Positions 375-29,851 of a DNA stretch of 64,000 nucleotides are shown one piece after another (within the stretch, counting starts at the first letter, position 1; each line of letters opens with the position of its first letter). The notes beneath the pieces are model-generated. The model worked only from the letters and a program-made list of their open reading frames with translations, was not told the DNA's origin and searched no databases. Where the stretch lies: the NCBI RefSeq assembly GCF_017583045.1, contig NZ_JAGFBF010000001.1, positions 558,001-622,000 of the forward strand. Direction: 5' to 3'. Position numbers and translations under genes: made by a program. The stretch comes from Leucobacter tardus. GTDB taxonomy: Bacteria; Actinomycetota; Actinomycetes; Actinomycetales; Microbacteriaceae.

Positions 375-1385
375 ATGCGACAGACCTCGTTCCGACGCCG
401 CGCGTTCGCGCTCGTCGGCCTCTCCGCGGCCGCGGCCCTCACCCTCTCCTCCTGCGCCAGCGGCAACGATGCCGGCGACGCAGAGGCTGGCGGCGACGGC
501 GACAGCTACCGCATCGGTATCAGCCAGTTCGCCCCGCATCCCGCGCTCGACGCGGCGTCCGAGGGATTCAAGGCCGCGTTCGAGGAGGCCGGTCTCGAGG
601 TCGAGTTCGACGAGCAGAACGCTCAGGGCGAGCAGGCGACCGCGGTCACCATCGCCGAGTCGTTCGCGAACGAAGATCTCGATCTGGCCCTCGCGATCGC
701 GACGCCCGCCGCCCAGGCGCTCGCGAGCTCGGTCTCGACCTACCCCGTGCTGTTCACCGCGGTGACCGACGCCGTCGAGGCCGATCTCGTCGACTCCAAC
801 GAGGAGCCGGGCGGCAACATCACCGGCACCAGCGACGCCGTGCCGCCGGAGGCGCTGGAAGGCCAGTTCGACCTCATCACCGAGATGGTGCCCGACGCGA
901 AGAAGGTCGGCATCGTGTACGCCTCGGGTGAGGTCAACTCCGAGGTGCAGGTCGAGCAGGCGACCGAGGTCGCGGCGGATCGCGATCTCGAGGTCGTGAC
1001 CCAGACCGTCACCACCGCGAACGACATCGCTCAGGCCACCGAGGCGCTCGGCGACGTCGACGCCATCTACGTGCCGACCGACAACATGGTCGTCAACGGT
1101 ATCGCGGCGCTCGTGCAGGTCGCCGAGCAGAAGCAGATCCCCGTGATCGCCGCCGAGGCCGGCACCGTCGAGGGCGGCGCCATCGCCACCATGGGCATCG
1201 ACTACGAGGCGCTCGGCAAGCAGACCGGCGAGATGGCGATCGCGATCCTCGAGGGCGGCGACCCTGCGTCGACCCCCGTCGAGATGGCCGCGACGCTCGC
1301 GAACACCGTGAACCCCGCCGCAGCGGAGCGCATGGGTGTCGAGATCCCCGACTCCGTCATGGAGGGTGCAGACGTCGTCGAGTAA
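375..1385 (+). CDS. ABC transporter substrate-binding lipoprotein (TrpX-like)
   Basis: 336 residues. It starts at ATG 375 behind AAAGGA at suitable spacing; a longer in-frame opening upstream has no signal peptide or ribosome site. The N-terminus is a lipoprotein signal: basic RRR, a hydrophobic stretch, then the lipobox LSSC. After a Gly/Asp-rich linker comes a two-lobed periplasmic-binding fold of the PF04392 type (GISQFAPHPALDAASEGFKAA; later YVPTDNMV). In this family the protein captures an amino acid, tryptophan or tyrosine in characterised cases, or a related small molecule. It is followed by a BPD_transp_2 permease and an ATPase, the usual three-gene order. The ligand cannot be read from the sequence. 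Confidence 0.9.
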   Translation: MRQTSFRRRAFALVGLSAAAALTLSSCASGNDAGDAEAGGDGDSYRIGISQFAPHPALDAASEGFKAAFEEAGLEVEFDEQNAQGEQATAVTIAESFANEDLDLALAIATPAAQALASSVSTYPVLFTAVTDAVEADLVDSNEEPGGNITGTSDAVPPEALEGQFDLITEMVPDAKKVGIVYASGEVNSEVQVEQATEVAADRDLEVVTQTVTTANDIAQATEALGDVDAIYVPTDNMVVNGIAALVQVAEQKQIPVIAAEAGTVEGGAIATMGIDYEALGKQTGEMAIAILEGGDPASTPVEMAATLANTVNPAAAERMGVEIPDSVMEGADVVE

Positions 1386-1410
1386 CCACTCGACGACGCT
1401 CATCGAACTA

Positions 1411-1463
1411 CTCGGCCGGTCCCCGGCGCCGTCACGTACGGAGTCGGGGAACCGGTGGCCGAG
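1411..1463 (+). terminator. Intercistronic stem-loop between binding protein and permease
   Basis: CTCGGCC (1411-1417) pairs with GGCCGAG (1457-1463), and GGTCCCCG pairs with CGGGGAACC inside it. The stem has no T-tract. It lies in the 125-bp gap after the binding-protein gene, where ABC importers often carry a partial terminator or 3'-end protecting hairpin so that binding protein exceeds permease. Confidence 0.5.
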
Positions 1464-1510
1464 CGACGCCCCGGCGTCGCACTGCAAAGGATGCGTAAGG
1501 AAATGACGTC

Positions 1511-2569
1511 ATGATCGGCGCTCTCGAACTCGGAATCATCTACGGCGTCATGGCCCTGGGTGTCTACCTCACCTTCAAAGTGCTGAACTTCCCCGACCTC
1601 ACCGTCGACGGCAGCTTCACCACGGGTGCCGCCGTCGCGGCATCGATGATCACGCTCGGACAGAACCCCTGGCTCGCCACGCTCGCCGGAGGCGCTGCCG
1701 GCATCGTCGCCGGAATCATCACGGGCGTGCTCCACACCAAGGGAAAGATCGACGGCCTCCTGGCCGGGATCCTGACCATGATCGCGCTCTGGTCGGTGAA
1801 CCTGCGCATCATGGGGACGACCAAGGAAGACGCGGTGAGCACGTCGAACCTGCCGCTGCTGCGGGCCGACACCGTCTTCACACCGCTCGCCGACGCGGGC
1901 ATCTCGCGCACCTGGATGAGCATCGCGTTCGTCGCCGTCGCCGTGATCGTCGTGAAGCTCTTGGTCGACTGGTTCCTCTCGACGAACCAGGGCCTCGCCA
2001 TTCAGGCGACGGGCGACAACGGCCCGATGATTCGCAGCTTCGGGGTGAGCACCGACCGCACGACGATCCTGACGCTCGCGCTCTCGAACGGTCTCGTCGC
2101 ACTGTGCGGCGCACTCGTCGCCCAGTACCAGGGTTTCGCCGACATCAGCATGGGCATCGGGCTCATCCTGGTCGGGCTCGCCTCGGTGATCCTGGGTCAG
2201 GCCGTCTTCGGGCAGAAGTTCATCTGGATCGCGAGCCTCGCGGCCGTGCTCGGTGCTGTGCTCTACCGGCTCATCATCTTCTTCGCCCTGCAGGTCGGTC
2301 TCGATCCGAACGACATGAAGTTCGTCACCGCCGTCCTGGTCGTCGCCGCGCTGCTCCTGCCGCGCTGGGGCTTCCTGAAGCGGGTGCCCAGATTGCGTCG
2401 CGCCGCGGGAACCATCGTGCTCGACCAGCCCGCTCCCGCCGTCGCCGCCGCCGACTCAGCCGCCGATGTCACCGGCATCGGCGATGAAGGAACGGACCGC
2501 CCGGTGACCGCTGCAGCCGGATCCTCGGGCGCCGCGACCCGCACCACGACCCAGAACCAGGGGGAGTAA
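1511..2569 (+). CDS. ABC transporter permease (BPD_transp_2 family)
   Basis: 352 residues, ATG 1511 preceded by a purine-rich GTAAGGAAATG region. About eight to nine hydrophobic segments are visible, beginning LGIIYGVMALGVYLTF, with the LTVDGSF region and the GLVALCGALVAQYQGFADI loop typical of branched-chain-type permeases paired with PF04392 binding proteins. The last 60 or so residues form a hydrophilic Ala/Thr-rich cytoplasmic tail. Its stop overlaps the ATPase start by one base (TAATG), so the two are translationally coupled. Role: membrane channel of the importer encoded by the flanking genes. Confidence 0.9.
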   Translation: MIGALELGIIYGVMALGVYLTFKVLNFPDLTVDGSFTTGAAVAASMITLGQNPWLATLAGGAAGIVAGIITGVLHTKGKIDGLLAGILTMIALWSVNLRIMGTTKEDAVSTSNLPLLRADTVFTPLADAGISRTWMSIAFVAVAVIVVKLLVDWFLSTNQGLAIQATGDNGPMIRSFGVSTDRTTILTLALSNGLVALCGALVAQYQGFADISMGIGLILVGLASVILGQAVFGQKFIWIASLAAVLGAVLYRLIIFFALQVGLDPNDMKFVTAVLVVAALLLPRWGFLKRVPRLRRAAGTIVLDQPAPAVAAADSAADVTGIGDEGTDRPVTAAAGSSGAATRTTTQNQGE

Positions 2570-3360
2570 TGCTCGCCATCGACCAGGTCTCGAAAACATT
2601 CTTCCCCGGTACGGTCAACGAGCGCCGCGCGCTCGTCGAACTCGGACTCCGACTCGATGAGGGAGACTTCGTCACCGTCATCGGCTCCAACGGTGCCGGC
2701 AAATCGACGCTGCTGAACGCGATCTCCGGGCGCTACACCGTCGATAGCGGACGCATCGAGATCGACGGCAAGCTCGTCAACCGACTCAAGGAGTACCAGC
2801 GGGCGAAGTTCCTCGGCCGCGTGTTCCAGGATCCGATGGCGGGCACCGCTCCGAGCCTGACGATCGAGCAGAACCTCGCGCTCGCCTCGCGCCGCGGGCA
2901 GACGCGCGGTCTGGGCCGGAGTCTGTCCCGCGGACAGCGCGAGGGGTTCCGCGAGCACCTCGCGACGCTCGAGCTCGGCCTCGAGAACCGGCTGACCGCC
3001 AAGGTCGGACTGCTGTCGGGCGGTCAGCGCCAAGCGCTGTCCCTCTTGATGGCCGGGTTCACCAAGCCGCGGATCCTGCTGCTCGACGAGCACACCGCCG
3101 CGCTCGATCCGCAACGCGCCGCGCTCGTGACCGAGCTCACCGAGCGCATCGTCTCGCAGGGCAACCTCACGACGCTCATGGTGACGCACAACATGGAGCA
3201 GGCCCTTGCCCTCGGCAACCGCCTCATCATGATGCACGAGGGCCGGATCGTCTTTGAGGCGGACGCCGAGCGCAAGCGCACGCTGACCGTCGCCGGACTG
3301 CTCGACGAGTTCGCGAAGATCAAGGGAGCGACGCTCGACGACCGGGCGATGCTCGGATAA
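2569..3360 (+). CDS. ABC transporter ATP-binding protein
   Basis: 263 residues. Walker A is GSNGAGKST (about residues 39-47), the signature is LSGGQRQALSLL, Walker B is ILLLDEHTAALDP, and the switch histidine is in VTHNMEQA. The aspartate-glutamate pair of Walker B is intact, so it should hydrolyse ATP. The start overlaps the permease stop by one base. It powers the importer made by the two genes before it. The gene ends at a strong inverted repeat that also serves the convergent regulator gene. Confidence 0.93.
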   Translation: MLAIDQVSKTFFPGTVNERRALVELGLRLDEGDFVTVIGSNGAGKSTLLNAISGRYTVDSGRIEIDGKLVNRLKEYQRAKFLGRVFQDPMAGTAPSLTIEQNLALASRRGQTRGLGRSLSRGQREGFREHLATLELGLENRLTAKVGLLSGGQRQALSLLMAGFTKPRILLLDEHTAALDPQRAALVTELTERIVSQGNLTTLMVTHNMEQALALGNRLIMMHEGRIVFEADAERKRTLTVAGLLDEFAKIKGATLDDRAMLG

Positions 3361-21057: not shown

Positions 21058-22032
21058 ATGTCGATCACGGCGACCACCGAACCGGCCGAACAGGCGGGGC
21101 AGGAGCACTTCGATGCGATCATCGCGGCCGATCAGCGGATCGAGCCGCGCGACTGGATGCCCGAGAAGTACCGGCGTACGCTCATCCGTCAGATCTCGCA
21201 GCACGCGCATTCGGAGATCATCGGCATGCAGCCCGAAGCGAACTGGATCACCCGTGCACCGAGCCTCAAGCGCAAAGCGATCCTCACCGCCAAGGTGCAG
21301 GACGAGGCGGGCCACGGGCTCTACCTGTACGCCGCGGCGCAGACGCTCGGCATCACGCGCGACGAGATGACGATGCAGCTCATCGAGGGTCGCGCCCGCT
21401 ACTCCTCGATCTTCAACTACCACACGCCGACCTGGGCCGACATGGGCGCCATCGGGTGGCTCGTCGACGGTGCCGCGATCTGCAACCAGGTGCCGCTCTG
21501 CCGCGCGTCGTACGGCCCGTACGGTCGCGCGATGGTGCGCATCTGCAAGGAGGAGTCCTTCCATCAGCGCCAAGGGTTCGAGATCTTGATGGAGCTGTCG
21601 AACGGCACCCCGGAGCAGAAGCAGATGGCGCAGGATGCCGTCGACCGCTGGTACTGGCCCGCGCTGATGATGTTCGGTCCGAGTGACGAGCACTCGCCCA
21701 ACTCGGCGCAGTCGATGGCATGGAAGATCAAGCGGTTCTCGAACGATGAACTGCGCAACCGGTTCGTCGGCATGTGCGTGCCGCAGTTCGAGGCGCTCGG
21801 GCTGGAGTGCCCGGACAAGGACCTCCGCTTCGATGAGGAGACCGGTACCTGGATCACCGGCGAGATCGACTGGGACGAGTTCAATGCCATTCTCGACGGG
21901 CGCGGGCCGGCGAACACGCAGCGGCTGCGTCACCGTCGCGAAGCGCACGAGTCGGGGGCCTGGGTCCGTGAGGCCGCCGCCGAGTACGCCCGGAAGCAGC
22001 GCGAGCGCGACCAGCAGCCGATCGCGGCCTGA
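21058..22032 (+). CDS. paaA: 1,2-phenylacetyl-CoA epoxidase subunit A (di-iron)
   Basis: 324 residues. ATG 21058 is preferred because AGGAGG lies 6 nt upstream; an ATG at 21028 has a weaker site. Di-iron ligands sit in [17 protein letters not shown] and [17 protein letters not shown], the two carboxylate-x2-His pairs of the ferritin-like fold. PaaA is the catalytic subunit of the multicomponent oxygenase that epoxidises the ring of phenylacetyl-CoA. It heads paaABCDE on the plus strand, behind a PaaR-like site. Confidence 0.96.
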
Positions 22033-22125
22033 CCGCTTGCGGCACAGCCGCACCACTTCCCGCCGCCCGGGCGGAGCGGCGTTCGCGCCGCACGATACGC
22101 AGACGAACACATCAAGGAGACGACG

Positions 22126-22431
22126 ATGTCGACACCCGGCGAGACCGGCACCGAGACCTGGCCACTGTGGGAGGTCTTCGTGCGGGCGGGGCGCGGCCTG
22201 AGCCACGTGCACGTGGGGTCGCTGCACGCCCCCGACGAGACGATGGCCCTGCGCAACGCGCGCGACCTGTACACGCGGCGCAACGAGGGTCTCTCCATCT
22301 GGGTGGTGCCCGCCGCGGCGATCACGACGAGTGATCCCGATGCCAAGGGCGTGTTCTTCGAATCGCCCGCGGGCAAGAACTACCGGCACGCGGTGTACTA
22401 CACCCGTGCCGAGGGGGTGAAGCACCTGTGA
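22126..22431 (+). CDS. paaB: 1,2-phenylacetyl-CoA epoxidase subunit B
   Basis: 101 residues, AAGGAGA before ATG 22126. Family motifs PLWEVFVRAGRGLSHVHVGSL and DLYTRRNEGLSIWVVPAAAI, plus FFESPAGKNYRHAVYYT, are complete. PaaB is a small structural protein needed for epoxidase assembly and electron transfer. It follows paaA after 93 bases, the largest gap in the operon, and its stop overlaps the paaC GTG start. Confidence 0.95.
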   Translation: MSTPGETGTETWPLWEVFVRAGRGLSHVHVGSLHAPDETMALRNARDLYTRRNEGLSIWVVPAAAITTSDPDAKGVFFESPAGKNYRHAVYYTRAEGVKHL

Positions 22432-23258
22432 ACGATGCGCACGTCGACGATCTGCACGGTGATGTCAGCGTCGATCAGCTGCAGCTCTCGGAGGAGCTGC
22501 TCGGGGTCTCGGGCACGGCATCGGAGGACGTCGCCGAGTACGCCATGCGGCTCGGTGATGACGCGCTGATCCTCGCCCAGCAGCTGGGGTGGTGGATCTC
22601 GCGCGCCCCCGAGCTCGAAGAGGATCTGGCGCTCGGCAACATCGGCCTCGACCTGCTGGGGCACGCGCGAGCGCTGCTCCACTACGCGGGCACCGCCTCC
22701 GGTCGCTCCGAGGACGACCTGGCGTACTGGCGCGACGAGACCGAGTTCCGCAGCTGCTGGCTCGTCGAGCAGCCGAACGGACACTTCGGCGACACGATCG
22801 CGCGCCAGTTCCTGTTCTCCGCGTACCAGGCCGAGCTCTACCGCGACCTGCAGCGCAGCGACGACGCGTCGCTCGTCGCGATCGCCGGGAAGGCCGATCG
22901 CGAAGTCAGGTATCACCTCGATCACGCGACGCAGTGGATCCTGCGACTCGCGGGCGGCACCGACGAGTCGCGCGAGAAGATCTCCGTCTCGCTCGCCGAG
23001 GTGTGGCCGTACGTCGAGGAGCTCTTCACGGATGACGCGCTGACCGAACGACTGACGGGTACGGTACCGCAGCCCTCGGCGCTGCGCGCGGGCTTCGACG
23101 CGACGATCGACGCCGTGCTGGCGGAGGCCGAACTCGAGCGCCCCGCTGCCAAGCCCGCCATGGCCGCCGGCCGCGAGGGGCGGCACAGCACCCAGCTCGG
23201 CTACATTCTGGCCGAGATGCAGTGGCTCGCCAGGCGGCACCCGGGAGCGACGTGGTGA
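22428..23258 (+). CDS. paaC: 1,2-phenylacetyl-CoA epoxidase subunit C
   Basis: 276 residues, GTG 22428 overlapping the paaB stop. It has a ferritin-like helical fold with LGDDALILAQQLGWWISRAPE and EDLALGNIGLDLLGHARALL near the N-terminus and KADREVRYHLDHATQWILRL in the middle. PaaC pairs with PaaA in the AC subcomplex but does not carry the active di-iron site. Length is slightly above the E. coli protein owing to an N-terminal extension. Confidence 0.94.
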   Translation: MNDAHVDDLHGDVSVDQLQLSEELLGVSGTASEDVAEYAMRLGDDALILAQQLGWWISRAPELEEDLALGNIGLDLLGHARALLHYAGTASGRSEDDLAYWRDETEFRSCWLVEQPNGHFGDTIARQFLFSAYQAELYRDLQRSDDASLVAIAGKADREVRYHLDHATQWILRLAGGTDESREKISVSLAEVWPYVEELFTDDALTERLTGTVPQPSALRAGFDATIDAVLAEAELERPAAKPAMAAGREGRHSTQLGYILAEMQWLARRHPGATW

Positions 23259-23773
23259 CCGCGGAGCTCACGGGCGTCAGGCCGACCGACGCCGCCGACG
23301 CGCGGGCCTGGGATCTCGCCGCCGAGGTGCTGGATCCCGAGGTGCCCGCGCTGACCATCGAGGATCTCGGCGTGCTGCGCGAAGCGCACGTGGACGGCAC
23401 CGCGGCGCGCATCGTGCTGACGCCCACCTACTCGGGGTGCCCGGCGATCGATCAGATGCGCGACGACGTCCGCGCGAAACTGCGCGAGGCGGGATTCACC
23501 GAGATCGAGGTCGACACGACGCTCAGTCCCGCATGGACCACCGACTGGATGACCGAGGCGGGCAAGCGCAAGCTCGAGGCCTACGGCATCGCGCCGCCCA
23601 ACTTCCGGTCGGCGATGCATCGCGGACCGATCCCGGTGCAGATCGCCGTGAAGTGCCCGCAGTGCCAGTCGCTGCGCACGCGCGAGATCGCCCGGTTCGG
23701 CTCGACCTCGTGCAAGGCGCTCTACGAGTGCCTCGACTGCCTCGAGCCCTTCGACTACTTCAAAGTCCACTAG
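23255..23773 (+). CDS. paaD: PaaD, DUF59/MIP18-type maturation factor
   Basis: 172 residues. GTG 23255 overlaps the paaC stop and follows GGGAG at 7 nt; GTG 23252 is one codon earlier. An N-terminal DUF59 domain (DPEVPALTIEDLGVL) carries the reactive cysteine in TPTYSGCPAID. A C-terminal zinc ribbon has CPQC, then STSCKALYECLDC. PaaD is thought to help load the iron-sulfur or di-iron cofactors of the epoxidase. Confidence 0.93.
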   Translation: MTAELTGVRPTDAADARAWDLAAEVLDPEVPALTIEDLGVLREAHVDGTAARIVLTPTYSGCPAIDQMRDDVRAKLREAGFTEIEVDTTLSPAWTTDWMTEAGKRKLEAYGIAPPNFRSAMHRGPIPVQIAVKCPQCQSLRTREIARFGSTSCKALYECLDCLEPFDYFKVH

Positions 23774-23790
23774 GCCGCGAGAGGATCACC

Positions 23791-24903
23791 ATGGCCGCCA
23801 TCAATCTCGGCAGGACTCGGCGCGCGACATTCCACGACCTCACGGTCGCCGATGTCCGCCCGCTCACCGAGTCGAGCGTCGAGGTCACGTTTGCCGTGCC
23901 CGACGACCTCGTCGACGACTACCGCTACGCCGCGGGTCAGTACCTGGCGCTGCGCACGACCATCGACGGCGAAGACGTGCGCCGCTCGTACTCCATCTGC
24001 CGCCCACCCGCAGACGGCAGCATCTCCGTCGCGATCAAGCGCGATCTCGGCGGGGTGTTCTCCAGCTGGGCCAACGAGCAGCTGCATCCGGGCGACACCC
24101 TGCAGGTGATGACCCCGCAGGGCGCGTTCACATCGAACCTCGCAGAACTCGACGGCAAGCGCGTCGTCGGCGTCGCGGCCGGATCGGGCATCACTCCGGT
24201 CATCACGATGGCGCACCGCGTGCTCAGCCAGAGCGACACCGCTCGCTTCGACCTGCTCTTCACGAACCGGTCGTCGCTCGACGTCATGTTCGTCGAAGAG
24301 CTCGCGGATCTCAAGGATCGCTACCCGCAGCGCTTCGCCCTGCACCACGTGCTCTCGCGCGAGCAGCGGGCGGCACCCATCATGTCGGGCCGACTCGATG
24401 AGGAGAAGCTGCGCACCATCCTCACCACGCTCATTCCGCCGAGCATGGTCGACGAGTGGGTGCTCTGCGGTCCCTTCGAGCTCGTGCAGCTCTGCCGCGA
24501 TCTGCTCGCCGAATTCGGCGTCGAGTCATCGCACATCCGCTTCGAACTCTTCACGACCGGCGAGCCGGGTCAGGCGACGCCGACGCGCGCCCGACCCGTG
24601 GAGGTGCAGCAGGGCGAGCGGACGGTCGCCATCGACTTCCGACTCGACGGCACATCGGGCTCCGTCGCGAGCCCCGTGAGCGCGAACGAGACGATCCTGA
24701 ACGCTGCGCTGCGCGTGCGCGCCGACGTGCCGTTCGCCTGCGCCGGCGGCGTGTGCGGCACCTGCCGTGCGAAGGTCGTCGAGGGTTCGGTCTCGATGAC
24801 CGAGAACTACGCGCTCGAGGCCGACGAGATCGAGCGCGGCTACGTGCTCACCTGCCAGTCGCATCCCACGTCCGAACGCGTGTTCGTCGACTACGACGCC
24901 TGA
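23791..24903 (+). CDS. paaE: 1,2-phenylacetyl-CoA epoxidase reductase subunit E
   Basis: 370 residues, GAGAGG upstream of ATG 23791. An FAD-binding domain (RRSYSICRPPADGSISVAIK) is followed by an NAD(P)-binding domain (GVAAGSGITPVITMAHRVL; WVLCGPFELVQLC) and a C-terminal plant-type 2Fe-2S ferredoxin domain with CAGGVCGTCRAK and the fourth cysteine in LTCQSH. It passes electrons from NADPH to the PaaA di-iron centre. Confidence 0.95.
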   Translation: MAAINLGRTRRATFHDLTVADVRPLTESSVEVTFAVPDDLVDDYRYAAGQYLALRTTIDGEDVRRSYSICRPPADGSISVAIKRDLGGVFSSWANEQLHPGDTLQVMTPQGAFTSNLAELDGKRVVGVAAGSGITPVITMAHRVLSQSDTARFDLLFTNRSSLDVMFVEELADLKDRYPQRFALHHVLSREQRAAPIMSGRLDEEKLRTILTTLIPPSMVDEWVLCGPFELVQLCRDLLAEFGVESSHIRFELFTTGEPGQATPTRARPVEVQQGERTVAIDFRLDGTSGSVASPVSANETILNAALRVRADVPFACAGGVCGTCRAKVVEGSVSMTENYALEADEIERGYVLTCQSHPTSERVFVDYDA

Positions 24904-24928
24904 CCCACGCCCGCTCGAGAGGAGCCCC

Positions 24929-25699
24929 GTGATCGACCTCACCATCGCCGACGACGTCGCCGAGATCACCCTGAACGCCCCCCAGAAGCTCAACGCGCTC
25001 GACGCCGCAGCCGTCGATGAGCTTTCCGACGCCTACGCGCGCGCCGCCGAGTCCGGTGTGCGGGCCCTCGTGCTCAGAGGCGAGGGGCGCGCGTTCTGCG
25101 CCGGCCGCGACATCTCGGGCGTCGACCCCCGTGAGGACGACGTGCTCGGATACCTCGAGGGACGCATCCAGCCGCTGATGGAGCGCATGGCCGCGTTCCC
25201 GGCACCCACGTTCGCGGTCGCGCACGGCGCCTGTCTCGGTGTCGGGCTCGGGCTGCTCATCGCGAGCGACGTCGTCTACGTCGCCGAATCCGCGAAGATC
25301 GGCAGTCCGTTCGCGAACCTCGGCGCCACCCTGGATTCGGGCGGGCACGCGCTGTTCGTCGAACGGCTCGGCGCGCACCGCACGCTCGACCTCATCTACA
25401 CGGGCCGACTGATGTCGGGGGCCGAAGCGGTGACGGCAGGACTGTTCTCACGCGTCTGCGCCGACGACGACGTACTCGACACCACGCGCGAGACGGCGAC
25501 GCGGGCTGCGGGTGGAGCGACGCGCGCCTTCCTGGCGTCCCGCGCACTGGTGCGCGACCTCCGCGACCGCCGCATCGGCCTCTGGGAGTCGATGGCCGAT
25601 GAGAACCGCGCCCAGGCGGCGCTCTGCGACACGGACGACTACCGCGAAGGCTTCGCCGCCTTCCAGGAGAAGCGGAAGCCGGTCTTCCATGGTCGGTGA
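24929..25699 (+). CDS. paaG: Crotonase-fold isomerase (PaaG-like)
   Basis: 256 residues, GTG 24929 after GAGAGGAG. It has a crotonase fold with oxyanion loop GRAFCAGRDISGVD, but the two hydratase glutamates are absent: the equivalent segments read CLGVGLGLLIASDV and IGSPFANLG. An aspartate in GATLDSGGHALF matches the catalytic Asp of PaaG. It therefore fits 1,2-epoxyphenylacetyl-CoA isomerase (to oxepin-CoA) better than an enoyl-CoA hydratase. It follows paaE by 25 bases and overlaps the thioesterase gene by 11. Confidence 0.82.
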   Translation: MIDLTIADDVAEITLNAPQKLNALDAAAVDELSDAYARAAESGVRALVLRGEGRAFCAGRDISGVDPREDDVLGYLEGRIQPLMERMAAFPAPTFAVAHGACLGVGLGLLIASDVVYVAESAKIGSPFANLGATLDSGGHALFVERLGAHRTLDLIYTGRLMSGAEAVTAGLFSRVCADDDVLDTTRETATRAAGGATRAFLASRALVRDLRDRRIGLWESMADENRAQAALCDTDDYREGFAAFQEKRKPVFHGR

Positions 25700-26111
25700 C
25701 GGACTCGAGTCGGGCAACTGGGTCGCGCAGAACGGATCGGGTGAGCTCGCCGACGCCATGGGCATCGAGTTCACCGAGTACACGGTGGAGCGCACGGTCG
25801 CCCGGATGCCGGTCGTCGGCAACCGTCAGACAGTGGGGTTTCTGCACGGCGGCGCGTACGTCGTGCTCGGGGAGTCGCTGGGATCGATGGCGGCGAACCT
25901 CCACGCGGGCGCCGGCAGGCTCGCGGTCGGCATCGACGTCAACGCGACACACGTGCGCTCCGCGACGTCCGGATACGTGACCGGCATCTGCACGCCGATC
26001 CATCTCGGCCGCACGCTGACCGTGCACGAGATCGTCGTCGAGGACGACGAGGGGCGCCGGTGCTGCACCGTGCGCATCACGAACCTCATCAAGGACGCCC
26101 CGTCCGACTGA
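25689..26111 (+). CDS. Hotdog-fold thioesterase (second, MenI/PaaI-like)
   Basis: 140 residues, ATG 25689 inside the 3' end of the isomerase gene. The motif TVGFLHGGAYVVLGESLGSM, with HGG and a glutamate rather than aspartate in the helix, is nearer the 1,4-dihydroxy-2-naphthoyl-CoA (MenI/YdiI) branch than PaaI. The first 22 residues have no similarity. Overlap with paaG makes co-expression with phenylacetate catabolism likely, perhaps as an extra CoA-releasing valve. Substrate unknown. Confidence 0.8.
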   Translation: MVGDGLESGNWVAQNGSGELADAMGIEFTEYTVERTVARMPVVGNRQTVGFLHGGAYVVLGESLGSMAANLHAGAGRLAVGIDVNATHVRSATSGYVTGICTPIHLGRTLTVHEIVVEDDEGRRCCTVRITNLIKDAPSD

Positions 26112-26161: not shown

Positions 26162-29100
26162 ATGGCAGAGCTTCCGGAAGGTGTCGGGGACGCCGCCGAG
26201 GCGCGAGTCGTCGAATGGGCGCGGACGCTCAGCGAGGCCAGGCATGCCGGCCGCGGGCATCCCGATCTCGTCGGCGGCGCGCGTCACGACGCGAGCGGAT
26301 TGGCGTTCACGCAGCGGGTCATGGACCTGCTCGCCGGGTCCGACGACGCGTTCGCCACGGCGTTCGGCCTGCGGGAGGCTTCACGCGACCTCCCGCGGAC
26401 GCTGCCCGTGCGCGACCGTCTCGCGGTGCGCGCCGGCGGCCTCGCATCGCTCGGGCTGCCATGGGCCGTCGTGCCGATCGCGAAGCGCTGGTTGCGCGAC
26501 CGGGCGAAGCACCTCGTGCTGCCCGCCCGTCTCCCGACCGACCCCGACCACCCGAATCGGGCCGCAGCCCTCGCCATGGCTCTCGAGCGGCGCTCGACCG
26601 CCGGGCTGAGGCCGTCGGTCCGCCTCCTCGGCACGCCCGTTCACGGACCCGCGGCGGCCGAACGGGAGATCGAGCGACTGACGGCGCTCGCCGGCTTCCC
26701 GGGAGTGACCGACCTCATCGTGGACGCCCGCAGGGTCATGCCAGGCGGAACGGACTGGTCGACCGAGGCGGACGTGACCGACGCCGTCGCGCGACTCCGC
26801 CCGCTCTTTGACGCGGCCCTCGCGCACGAGGTGGGGGTCACCCTCGAGCCCGGCTCCTATCGGGAGGCGCGGCTCGTCCCCGAGGTCCTGCTGCGCGCCC
26901 TCGCCGATCCGGCCCTCGACCGCGTGCGCGCGGGTGTCGGGATCCTCGCCGAGCTGCCGGACTCCCGCGACATTCTGGAGCGCGTGCTGCGCTGGGCCGG
27001 CCTGCGCGCCGCTGAAGGCGGCGCCGCACTCGAGGTCGTGCTGGGCACGGGCGGCATCGTCGGCGCCGAACGGATCGCATCGATCCAGTCGGGCCTCGCG
27101 ATCCCCGCGTTCGAGCACCGGACCGAGATCGATGGGCAGCTGCTCAGACTCGCCGACCTCGCACTGCACCCCGAGCACGCCGCGCACGTGCGGGTCGTCG
27201 TCGCGAGCGACGACCCCCACCTCATCGCTGCCGTCGAGGCCATCGCGCTCGAGCGCGACCTCGTCGGCATGCTCCGATTCCGGCTGCGCGCCGGCATCGG
27301 CGACGACCTCGCCGAGCACCTTGCACGCACGCGAACCGGGGTCAGGATCGCGCAGCCCGTCGTGCGCCCCGCCGAGTTCACCGGTGCCGTCGACCTGCTG
27401 CTCGCGCTCGCCGCGGAGGCAGCCGACCCCGATTCCGCACTGGCCGGACTCGATGGCGTGCTGCGCGGCGACAACGAGGCGCTCGCAGCCGAGCGCGAAC
27501 GTCTCGCGGCCGCGCTGAGCGCCGCAGCCGACCCGTTCCCGCCCGTGCGACGCACGCAGCAGCGCACGCGGGAGTGGGACCCCAGCGAACGCGACAGCGC
27601 CCTCTTCTACCGCGCCCCAGACGATCCGTCACCGTTCCACACGGGCGGACTGACCGCAGCGGTGCTCGGACTCGGTCGTGCAGACACGGGCGAGGTGCAG
27701 CTCGAGGCGATGGGCACGCCCATCGCGATCCCCGTGGTCTCGCAATCGGGGTTCGCAGCTGAGCCCATCACCGACGCGACGGTGACGACGAACCGGGACT
27801 GGGCGCGCAAACTCCTCGACCGTGCGGCACAGGTGCGAGAGACCACCTCCGCGACGGAAGCACCGAGTGTCGGTGCTCCCGAGGTCGAGGAGATCCTGGG
27901 CGCCGCCCGCAGTGCCGGGGAGCGCTGGGCGAGCCAGAACCACACTCTGCGCGCCACTCGCCTGCGCCGTGCCGCGCTCGCCACAGTCGCCGCTCGCGAC
28001 CGGCTCACGGAGGCGCTCGCCGCCGACACCGGAGCACCGATCACGGTCATCGACGCGACCGTCACCGACATCGTCGACACGGCCAGATACACCGGTCAGC
28101 TCGCCGAGAACCTGAACGCGGTGCGCGGGGCGAGCTTCCACCCCGACGGGCTCGGCGTCGTGATCGCGGGTGCCGCCGCACCGTTCGCCGAGCAGGTCGA
28201 GAGCGTCGTCGCCCTGCTCGCCGCGGGCAGCGCCGTGGTGTGGGCGTTCCCCGAGGGGCAGCGTCGTGCAGCTGCCGTGCTGGTTGAGGAATGGGTACGG
28301 TCAGGACTCCCGGTCGAGACCGTGACGACGATCGCGCTCCCATCGGGTGAGGCTCCGGACCTCGACGGAGCGGTCGCGTTCGCGCGCGCGCTGGGTGCCG
28401 CGGAGACGGCGATCGACCGCGCGACGGTGTTCGCGAACCCCGGCGCGTCGCGCGCCCTCGCGCAGCGACGACCCGACCTGCGCCTCGACAGCCGCTTCCC
28501 CGCCATCGGCAGCATCGTGGTCACCCCTGCCGCCGAGATCGACTCGGCCATCGCCGATGTCGTCGCCTCCGCCTTCGGTCAGCCGGGGCCGCGAGCGGCT
28601 GGCCGCGCGATCCTCGTCGGCGCCGTGCACCGGTCGCGTCGCTTTCGCGAGGGTCTCGCCGACGCCGTGCGCGCGCTGCGCGTCGGGGATTCGGCCGCCT
28701 CCGGCAGTGATGATCCACTGGCACTGCAGGTCGGCCCGCTGCCGATCCAGCCGTCCGATGCCCAATTGCGGGCGCTCACCCGGCTCGAGAAGGGCGAGGA
28801 GTGGCTCGTCGAGCCGCGCCGACTCGACGACACCGGACGACTGTGGAGCCCCGGCGTGCGCACCGGCGTCGCCAGCAATGCGCAGTTCTGGGAGGACGCA
28901 CGCGGCGTCCCCGTGCTCGGCATCGCCCATGCCTTCACGCTCGGTGATGCGATCGCCGCGCAGACGGCCGGCGGGGGAGCGGTCGCGGGGCTCCAATCGC
29001 TCGACCCCCGTGAGATGCTGCACTGGCTCGATCGCGCGCAGGCGGCGTCGCTCGCCGTGAATCGTCCGACCACGGCGGCCCGCGTCGAACGGCACCCCGG

Positions 29101-29851
29101 TGGCGCGTGGAACGACGCAGGTGCCGGTATCTCCGCGCTGTCGGGCGGTCCCCAGCGGCTGCTGACGCTCGGGACCTGGCACGTGCGCGAGGGGACGCGC
29201 AGTTCGACCCTGCACCTGCGCGGGCTCGATCCCGAAGTGCAGATTCTCATCGAGGTCGCGCAGGAGGCGCTCTCGTACGAGGAGTTCGACGAGCTCAGAC
29301 GCGCCGCACTCGCCGATGTGCTCGCCTGGCGCACCTCGCTCGGGGTGGTGCGCGACACGATCGGGCTCGGCATCGAGCGCAACGCGCTGCGCCACTGGCC
29401 CGTACCGGTGCAGATCCGACTGTCCGAGGGGGCACCGGTGGCCGAGCTCTTGCGGGTCATCGCCGCGGCACTGCTCGTGCGGGCCCCCTTCACAGTGTCG
29501 ACGGGACACGTGCTGCCCGAAGCGGTCACCGCGTTCCTGCGGACGCAGGGCATCGCGCTCTCGCTCGAGAGCGACAGCGACTGGCTCGAACGCGTCGTCG
29601 TCACGCCGCCCGCCGTCGACGGGACCCCCGTCGTGCGCGTGCGCATGATCGGGGGCGATCGGGTGCGCACGGCCGAGTGGATGAGCGGCGGCGCCGACCT
29701 CGCACTGTGGGCGGAGCCCGTCACCATGGCCGGACCGGTCGAGCTCATCAGCCTGCTCCGCGAGCAGGCGATCTCCGTGCGCACGCACCGTCACGCCATG
29801 GGCGCGCCGTCCCCCGAACTCGACGAGTGGATGGCTGAATTCGAGCGTTGA
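26162..29851 (+). CDS. PutA-family bifunctional proline dehydrogenase homologue, predicted pseudoenzyme
   Basis: 1229 residues from ATG 26162. The layout matches actinobacterial PutA: a PRODH-like barrel (about residues 30-450), an aldehyde-dehydrogenase-like domain (about 560-1010) and the C-terminal PutA tail. Key sites are lost. Where PutA has GQKCS, this protein has GPRAA (Ala812 for the catalytic Cys), and the upstream ETSGKN segment reads RFPAIGS. The NAD-ribose Glu of EYFGP is lost in ARGVPVLG. In the barrel, the KVRLVKGAN strand reads EVVLGTGG and the NLDMEEY strand reads TLEPGSY. Regions such as VHRSRRFREGL, TRLEKGEEWLVEPRRLDD and GRLWSPGVRTGV are well kept. The frame is uninterrupted, so this looks like a maintained non-catalytic paralogue, possibly regulatory or structural. 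Annotation as active PutA would be misleading. Confidence 0.82.
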   Translation: MAELPEGVGDAAEARVVEWARTLSEARHAGRGHPDLVGGARHDASGLAFTQRVMDLLAGSDDAFATAFGLREASRDLPRTLPVRDRLAVRAGGLASLGLPWAVVPIAKRWLRDRAKHLVLPARLPTDPDHPNRAAALAMALERRSTAGLRPSVRLLGTPVHGPAAAEREIERLTALAGFPGVTDLIVDARRVMPGGTDWSTEADVTDAVARLRPLFDAALAHEVGVTLEPGSYREARLVPEVLLRALADPALDRVRAGVGILAELPDSRDILERVLRWAGLRAAEGGAALEVVLGTGGIVGAERIASIQSGLAIPAFEHRTEIDGQLLRLADLALHPEHAAHVRVVVASDDPHLIAAVEAIALERDLVGMLRFRLRAGIGDDLAEHLARTRTGVRIAQPVVRPAEFTGAVDLLLALAAEAADPDSALAGLDGVLRGDNEALAAERERLAAALSAAADPFPPVRRTQQRTREWDPSERDSALFYRAPDDPSPFHTGGLTAAVLGLGRADTGEVQLEAMGTPIAIPVVSQSGFAAEPITDATVTTNRDWARKLLDRAAQVRETTSATEAPSVGAPEVEEILGAARSAGERWASQNHTLRATRLRRAALATVAARDRLTEALAADTGAPITVIDATVTDIVDTARYTGQLAENLNAVRGASFHPDGLGVVIAGAAAPFAEQVESVVALLAAGSAVVWAFPEGQRRAAAVLVEEWVRSGLPVETVTTIALPSGEAPDLDGAVAFARALGAAETAIDRATVFANPGASRALAQRRPDLRLDSRFPAIGSIVVTPAAEIDSAIADVVASAFGQPGPRAAGRAILVGAVHRSRRFREGLADAVRALRVGDSAASGSDDPLALQVGPLPIQPSDAQLRALTRLEKGEEWLVEPRRLDDTGRLWSPGVRTGVASNAQFWEDARGVPVLGIAHAFTLGDAIAAQTAGGGAVAGLQSLDPREMLHWLDRAQAASLAVNRPTTAARVERHPGGAWNDAGAGISALSGGPQRLLTLGTWHVREGTRSSTLHLRGLDPEVQILIEVAQEALSYEEFDELRRAALADVLAWRTSLGVVRDTIGLGIERNALRHWPVPVQIRLSEGAPVAELLRVIAAALLVRAPFTVSTGHVLPEAVTAFLRTQGIALSLESDSDWLERVVVTPPAVDGTPVVRVRMIGGDRVRTAEWMSGGADLALWAEPVTMAGPVELISLLREQAISVRTHRHAMGAPSPELDEWMAEFER

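Follow-up and report, generated by a model that had tools for sequence, protein, structure and literature searches.

PutA is the textbook bifunctional enzyme with substrate channelling, in which a proline dehydrogenase (PRODH) domain and an aldehyde dehydrogenase (ALDH) domain are carried on one chain. In Sinorhizobium meliloti PutA, Cys844 and Glu810 are catalytic in the ALDH domain, the C844S change disabling that domain and Glu810 aiding hydrolysis (PMC12398946); the C792A change in BjPutA abolishes ALDH activity and spares proline oxidation by PRODH (PMC5786444), and larger PutAs possess a C-terminal domain (PMC5293562). The modes by which pseudoenzymes act have been reviewed (PMC10211241). 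A literature search, whose coverage excluded most subscription papers, found no description of a PutA with both active sites lost or of a Leucobacter proline dehydrogenase. Here, a 64,000-nucleotide stretch of Leucobacter tardus DNA (contig NZ_JAGFBF010000001.1, positions 558,001 to 622,000; hereafter the window) was analysed for one gene on its forward strand, which encodes a full-length PutA homologue from which both catalytic centres have been erased (the dead copy, or dead PutA).

It is very likely that this protein is a selected, redox-dead derivative of PutA. The reading preferred here, with a probability of roughly one half, goes further, namely that duplication of PutA was followed by its conversion into a protein without redox function, which binds a ligand or acts as a scaffold and has been kept by selection. 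The gene and its parts are as follows:

26162..29851, + strand: coding sequence of the double-dead PutA homologue, 1229 amino acids in 1229 uninterrupted codons
26597..27481, + strand: (beta-alpha)8 barrel of the PRODH domain, delimited here as residues 146-440 on the basis of the Pfam match, the secondary structure of the model and residue tables
27524..27796, + strand: interdomain linker, residues 455-545, the most conserved region of the family
27839..29191, + strand: aldehyde dehydrogenase domain, residues 560-1010 (limits set here), lacking the Cys, the general-base Glu and the EYFGP Glu
29192..29848, + strand: C-terminal domain, residues 1011-1229, resembling that of larger PutAs and strongly conserved (ratio of nonsynonymous to synonymous substitution rates, dN/dS, 0.04)

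Both domains are recognised by Pfam above the gathering cut-offs (Pro_dh at residues 148-405, 43.5 bits; Aldedh at residues 564-990, 92.8 bits), and the top match of the protein in the Protein Data Bank is 5ux5, the PutA of Corynebacterium freiburgense (phmmer E 7e-90, in two stretches). AlphaFold2, given residues 30-1229 and a 39-row alignment, returned a model of the whole PutA fold with a mean predicted local distance difference test score (pLDDT) of 85.7 and a predicted template-modelling score (pTM) of 0.89, and Foldseek searched with this model ranked 5ux5 first (TM 0.90 by target length and 0.73 by query length, 26% identity). A distant family member, L139 from the L. chinensis group (39% identical), gave a pLDDT of 81.8 and a pTM of 0.84; since both proteins model well and 5ux5 is the top Foldseek match, the PutA architecture appears to be kept, with homologous PRODH and ALDH domains on one chain in the PutA fold. 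The NCBIfam equivalog model for PutA, NF008869, discriminates little, because the canonical PutA of the same genome (370 bits) also falls under its cut-off of 747 bits, the window protein scoring 52.2 bits.

The ETSGKN, GQKCS, EYFGP, KGAN and RRLEE motifs of that canonical PutA are all replaced in the window protein, and two of the replacements fall on the catalytic residues of the ALDH domain:

28493..28510, + strand: RFPAIG (residues 778-783) in place of ETSGKN, with the general-base Glu lost, by comparison with canonical PutA
28586..28600, + strand: GPRAA (around residues 809-813) in place of GQKCS, with the nucleophile lost, from alignments

In addition, TEYFGPI has become DARGVPV, the EYFGP Glu being absent. 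A first-pass annotation of the window, which had claimed that both active sites were erased, quoted these ALDH changes together with three altered barrel strands (TLEPGSY, EVVLGTGG and VVVASDDP); all are present as quoted, and the erasure extends across the genus, as the counts below document. Its choice of Ala812 as the nucleophile equivalent was right as to the loss of the Cys, the exact position being dependent on the alignment (a two-residue gap with HMMER, Pro810 with MAFFT). Which residue faces the old nucleophile is immaterial because there is no cysteine among the 1229 residues of the protein, and a migrated ALDH nucleophile was rejected on the same ground. When the best family match of each genome was taken, in 48 of the 54 genomes of the genus (G260, G273, G277, G281, G286 and G290 being left out), the catalytic Cys and the general-base Glu expected of a PutA, as well as the EYFGP Glu, were each retained in 0/48.

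The PRODH site has been lost as well. Sites for flavin adenine dinucleotide (FAD) and proline were assigned by what is taken to be the E. coli numbering (Lys329, Asp370, Gln404, Arg431, Lys434, His487, Arg555, Arg556 and Glu559), and the window residues at the first eight are D, E, L, V, T, D, A and L, respectively, leaving the Glu559 site as the sole tested FAD/proline residue intact. All six basic residues expected of a PutA at these sites (Lys329, Arg431, Lys434, His487, Arg555 and Arg556) are therefore replaced. Across the genus, the Lys329, Gln404, Arg431, Lys434 and His487 sites are each retained in 0/47 genomes, the Asp370 site in 2/47 (it is Glu in 37/47), the Arg555 site in 4/47, the Arg556 site in 1/47 and the Glu559 site in 44/47. 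Little weight can be put on the Lys329 site by itself, since it is non-Lys in 4 of 40 proteins in which eight other markers are intact.

Several positions that are constant or nearly so in canonical PutA now carry charges that are themselves nearly invariant in the dead family:

26723..26725, + strand: Asp188, where barrel strand 2 ends, replacing the catalytic Lys (Lys329 of E. coli); Asp in 46/50 family members
26951..26953, + strand: Glu264, just past strand 4, in place of Tyr (31/31 canonical); Glu in 46/50
27032..27034, + strand: Glu291, where strand 5 begins; Lys in 31/31 canonical proteins, Glu in 48/50 of the family
27209..27214, + strand: Asp350-Asp351, just past strand 6, in place of His-Asn (31/31 canonical); acidic (Glu/Asp) in 49/50 and 47/50
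27287..27289, + strand: Arg376, where strand 7 ends; Leu in 31/31 canonical proteins, Arg in 47/50 of the family
27344..27346, + strand: Arg395, within strand 8; Leu in 27/31 canonical proteins, Arg in 47/50 of the family

These comparisons draw on a protein alignment from which loci already represented under another number, short matches (22) and 26 core-sequence duplicates (124 to 98) had been dropped. For conservation, residue and constraint comparisons, 50 dead and 31 canonical proteins were used of 100 rows; the 19 left out were intermediate-state copies, Agrococcus, Brevibacterium and more distant sequences, and a duplicate of the genome's own canonical PutA. That all 31 canonical proteins keep eight marker residues is descriptive rather than a test, these proteins having been chosen after the residue table was seen, and the residue differences between the two sets are partly circular because both sets were hand-picked after that table; the 48-genome retention counts, which take the best family match of each genome, are free of this circularity.

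Within these sets, the barrel of the dead family has gained 22 new conserved residues, ten of them Glu, Asp or Arg. The ALDH domain has gained 19, including five Arg and five Ala, and none of its catalytic positions has turned into a conserved charge, such positions varying or becoming Ala. Judged by the strand ends of the model, strands 2, 4, 6 and 7 carry residues 188, 264, 350-351 and 376, respectively, on their C-terminal side, which would correspond to the FAD/proline face of PutA. The new charged set is common to Leucobacter and, for the most part, to the L. chinensis group and Canibacter; other eroded PutA copies do not have it. As judged from sequence comparison, the barrel site appears to have been re-tooled, beyond mere erasure.

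The window genome (2.95 Mb, 7 contigs) holds two Pro_dh matches, the dead copy and a canonical PutA of 1189 amino acids (C1:178,253-181,822) with all motifs present. The two proteins are 29% identical, and the canonical gene lies at a separate locus, next to a gene resembling sodium:solute symporters and one for a LysR-type regulator (both named by inspection). A nine-member profile of the dead family matches 54/54 genomes of the genus, taken to be Leucobacter, with a best match per genome of more than 700 bits, canonical copies reaching at most 612 bits; it also matches Canibacter, the L. chinensis group and G047. An order-wide search (297 genomes drawn, 20 matches at E 1e-180) found no further family member in that sample, its best non-window score being 872 bits versus 1339-1923 bits for full-length members from the genus.

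A canonical-type Pro_dh match (at least 121 bits) is present in 45/54 genus genomes, that of the window included, these calls being made by Pro_dh score rather than by residue-by-residue reading and at least G260 and G263 looking split. No such match was found in the other 9/54 (G249, G271, G096, G268, G280, G292, G296, G286 and G290), all of which carry the dead copy. Completeness is at least 92% for the first seven listed, among which G249, G271 and G096 consist of one contig each; in the dead copies of the seven, the twelve tested sites are changed, except the Glu559 site and the Arg555 site in G271 and G296. In G280 and G292, the only Pro_dh match above the cut-off is the dead copy. A third, short Pro_dh-like frame (approximately 400 amino acids, 64-69 bits) occurs beside canonical and dead PutA at G287:C4:371530-372225, G278:C11:251309-251989 and G262:C6:81975-82646.

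Selection on the dead copy is purifying. Between the window protein and its counterpart in G014 (86% identity), dN/dS is 0.118 over the whole gene (PRODH 0.115, ALDH 0.173, linker 0.059, C-terminal domain 0.040) versus 0.064 for the canonical PutA of the same species pair, and nine other family pairs give 0.039-0.189. In 47 of the 48 genus genomes read, the family match lies in one frame, the stops in G261 and G265 being terminal stops. In L178 (G267, a single contig), the dead PutA is split across two frames near residues 727-746, through either lineage-specific loss or sequencing error. The protein is thus a homologue of an enzyme that lacks the required catalytic residues and is under selection. 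The first-pass annotation had called it a selected pseudoenzyme, and purifying selection in all ten pairs (0.04-0.19), a family member in every genus genome and the PutA fold kept in the model bear this out; the frameshifts in close relatives that would have signalled decay are rare, with apparent splits in 3/54.

Constraint in the dead family is inverted relative to canonical PutA, the linker and C-terminal domain being the most conserved parts and the PRODH barrel the least. Mean pairwise identity in the 50 dead versus the 31 canonical proteins is 0.484 versus 0.751 in PRODH, 0.661 versus 0.507 in the linker and 0.650 versus 0.532 in the C-terminal domain. The ratio of C-terminal to PRODH identity is accordingly 1.36 (1.22-1.48) in the dead and 0.71 (0.66-0.76) in the canonical set, and that of linker to PRODH identity 1.37 (1.25-1.49) versus 0.68 (0.64-0.71), the ranges covering 95% of 200 subsamples of 12. 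Within the linker, conservation peaks at residues 476-530, a stretch that is predicted to be disordered (pLDDT below 50), likewise in the L139 model, and that may serve as a docking segment; part of a linker motif, GLTxxVLGL, is also present in canonical relatives.

The dead family forms one clade (support 0.961 in a first tree and 1.0 in a second), with which the second PutA copies of G024, G003 and G019 group in both trees. The trees disagree on its nearest neighbour: in the first this is the G210 copy, and in the second it is the G234/G073/G136 group, which the first tree does not contain; the G035 copy moves. Related copies present a series of states: all eight markers are intact in G024, the ALDH Glu is lost in G003, ALDH is lost with five PRODH markers kept in G017, ALDH is lost with one PRODH Arg changed in G019, and both domains are eroded in G210, G098, G160, G234, G073 and G136. 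The Lys329 site is already changed in the ALDH-damaged copies of G017, G003, G019 and three Agrococcus genomes. The order of loss was not simply ALDH first, and the notion that the ALDH site always dies first was rejected, because the Lys329 site is altered both in these ALDH-damaged copies and in 4/40 proteins with eight intact markers.

Some of these copies merit separate mention. In L163 (G234), L164 (G073) and L166 (G136), both sites are eroded, several PRODH positions have become Arg and the ALDH Cys is lost; the eroded copy of G136 is the sole Pro_dh match of its genome. One genus contains both L156 (G017), which is ALDH-damaged with five PRODH markers intact and Arg at the Lys329 site, and L053, L157 and L158 (G210, G098 and G160), which are eroded in both domains. 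The Agrococcus copies L127, L128 and L134 keep the PRODH Arg/Lys markers, the ALDH Cys or base Glu being replaced and the Lys329 site changed.

Two neighbouring gene groups in the window bear on the context of the dead copy:

375..3360, + strand: TrpX-like ATP-binding cassette (ABC) transporter cassette (binding protein, permease, ATPase), 22.8 kb upstream of the dead PutA
21058..26111, + strand: phenylacetate genes, followed by enoyl-CoA hydratase and thioesterase genes, on the same strand and ending 50 bp before the dead PutA

A usual order in Leucobacter is a TrhO-like gene (-), an FCD-type GntR regulator (-), a PEBP-like gene (+), sometimes an aminotransferase, the TrpX-like ABC cassette, the dead PutA and a GNAT gene (-). 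Of 47 loci, the 36 distinct ones with 5 kb of upstream sequence were compared; the cassette immediately precedes the dead PutA in 19/36, with L112 scored as a miss although its cassette is adjacent, and PEBP and GntR genes lie within 5 kb in 22/36 and 19/36, respectively. The name of the cassette is limited to TrpX-like, its binding protein scoring 280.7 bits against TrpX at a cut-off of 390. In L086, L089, L100 and L109, the cassette upstream of the dead PutA is tandemly doubled, the outer copy being partly cut by the end of the locus. In the window, the 22.8 kb between cassette and dead PutA (3404-26111) hold an Lrp-like regulator, keto-acid dehydrogenase genes, a transporter and the phenylacetate genes (partly by inspection); farther upstream, the genome carries the TrhO-, GntR- and PEBP-like genes (by inspection). 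Of the phenylacetate genes, paaA, paaC and paaE were identified by NCBIfam above cut-off, those between being named by inspection. A strict functional tie to them was rejected, as the window and G014 are the only loci among those compared in which they immediately precede the dead PutA. The second PutA copy of G019 is also near paa genes.

The dead PutA probably took on a new, non-redox job, and the following course of events is proposed. A duplicated PutA, related to the second copies of some other Microbacteriaceae, would have lost its ALDH and PRODH sites stepwise, its re-tooling into a non-redox protein being placed in the line leading to Leucobacter and Canibacter. The old FAD/proline cavity, once rich in Lys, Arg and His and now acidic with two Arg, would bind a different ligand or hold a salt-bridge network, and the flexible conserved linker and the C-terminal domain would dock a partner. 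The protein would then act as a ligand-responsive scaffold or sensor independent of proline oxidation, possibly tied to amino-acid uptake because the dead PutA often sits behind the TrpX-like transporter. The new barrel charges may either accommodate a new ligand or occupy the vacant cavity as salt bridges, and whether the barrel has acquired a new ligand or partner function, rather than a merely filled cavity, is evenly balanced. A fuller account is tentative: that a whole two-domain redox enzyme was made non-redox, its charge-inverted barrel site serving a new, perhaps cationic, ligand or chemistry that is read out via the linker and C-terminal domain, and that several Leucobacter lineages kept it after losing their catabolic PutA. 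To name a specific function would be speculation.

Several observations weigh against re-tooling into a retained ligand-binding or scaffold protein. The conserved charges could merely plug the emptied FAD cavity, and their placement on the catalytic face is taken from the strand ends of the model; the L. chinensis group lacks Asp188 and Arg376, and the basal G047 has a partial charged set. G005, a small reduced genome of the Canibacter group, has a canonical PutA only and no dead copy. Assembly gaps may explain some of the nine genomes in which canonical-type Pro_dh was not found, two being only 72% and 76% complete. The apparent frame splits in the genus concern G267, where the canonical PutA is intact, G260, where the canonical copy is also split, and G277, the latter two being weaker assemblies; G247, outside the genus, shows an apparent split as well. 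Finally, the transporter linkage is absent in 17/36 loci, the window included, and in 6/36, the window again among them, none of the tested neighbours lies within 5 kb.

Among other explanations, a new enzyme, in which the barrel face with its acidic and Arg set would catalyse a flavin-free reaction, is doubtful. It would account for the change of positions constant in 31 canonical proteins to other near-invariant charges rather than to random residues, for the ten Glu, Asp or Arg among the 22 new conserved barrel residues and for the Glu559 site kept in 44/47 genomes. However, new conservation is not peculiar to the catalytic pocket, because the ALDH domain also gained 19 conserved residues while its catalytic positions vary or become Ala; moreover, the barrel is the least conserved domain (mean identity 0.484), which is unusual for an enzyme, and the neighbouring genes point to no substrate with confidence. 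Binding of FAD or NAD+ without turnover, by which the protein would still sense redox state as other PutAs do, is improbable: the retained fold and the Glu at the Asp370 site in 37/47 genomes would suit such a sensor, whereas the presumed FAD/proline shell (Lys329, Gln404, Arg431, Lys434 and His487 sites) is kept in 0/47 and the ALDH base Glu, Cys and EYFGP Glu in 0/48.

A role as a catalytically dead subunit in the regulation or assembly of canonical PutA, with which the shared fold would permit mixed oligomers in the manner of prozyme, is unlikely. Activation by a dead paralogue has precedent (PMC6221367), canonical-type Pro_dh occurs in 45/54 genus genomes, and the conserved linker and C-terminal domain would fit assembly; yet nine genomes, seven of them at least 92% complete, keep the dead copy with no canonical-type Pro_dh found, and in the window genome the canonical PutA is just 29% identical and located elsewhere. 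A purely regulatory or partner role is unlikely because of these nine genomes, and regulation of the real PutA, which the first-pass annotation had offered as a possible role, was rejected as the main one. That the gene is a slowly decaying remnant retained by chance is barely credible and was likewise rejected. The apparent splits in G267, G260 and G277 count in its favour, as does protein evolution faster than that of the canonical PutA in the same pair (0.118 versus 0.064), but low dN/dS in ten pairs, with the strongest constraint in the linker and C-terminal domain, presence in all 54 genomes and a single frame in 47/48 with terminal stops in G261 and G265 argue against decay.

A 1200-residue architecture kept genus-wide (approximately 50 sequenced species) without its catalytic centres asks what else this architecture can do. 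The path of loss can be studied in the natural series of related copies eroded at one site or at both, and genomes in which canonical PutA was not found allow the dead protein's function to be tested free of interference. Annotation pipelines should treat proline catabolism calls from Pfam matches with caution, since proline catabolism may be wrongly inferred where the dead copy, which Pfam calls Pro_dh and Aldedh above cut-offs, is the sole Pro_dh match, as in G280 and G292.

Among related systems, the eroded copies of other Microbacteriaceae (G234/G073/G136, G210/G098/G160, G019 and Agrococcus) share the PutA architecture with ALDH or both sites eroded but lack the Asp188/Glu264/Glu350/Arg376/Arg395 set of the dead family. 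Human ALDH16A1 has been described as an ALDH only and is not known to have a proline dehydrogenase domain. It resembles the dead PutA in having an ALDH fold without the entire catalytic triad, and is thought to work via protein interactions (PMC10650815). Prozyme, the dead paralogue of trypanosome AdoMetDC, is likewise a catalytically dead enzyme paralogue (PMC6221367), but it pairs with a live partner, whereas for the dead PutA no live paralogue was found in 9/54 genomes. With the PutAs of C. freiburgense (5ux5) and S. meliloti, the window protein shares domain order and the fold of the whole chain; in the canonical PutAs compared, the FAD/proline residues of PRODH and the Cys and Glu of ALDH are intact, whereas the window protein has lost both sets.

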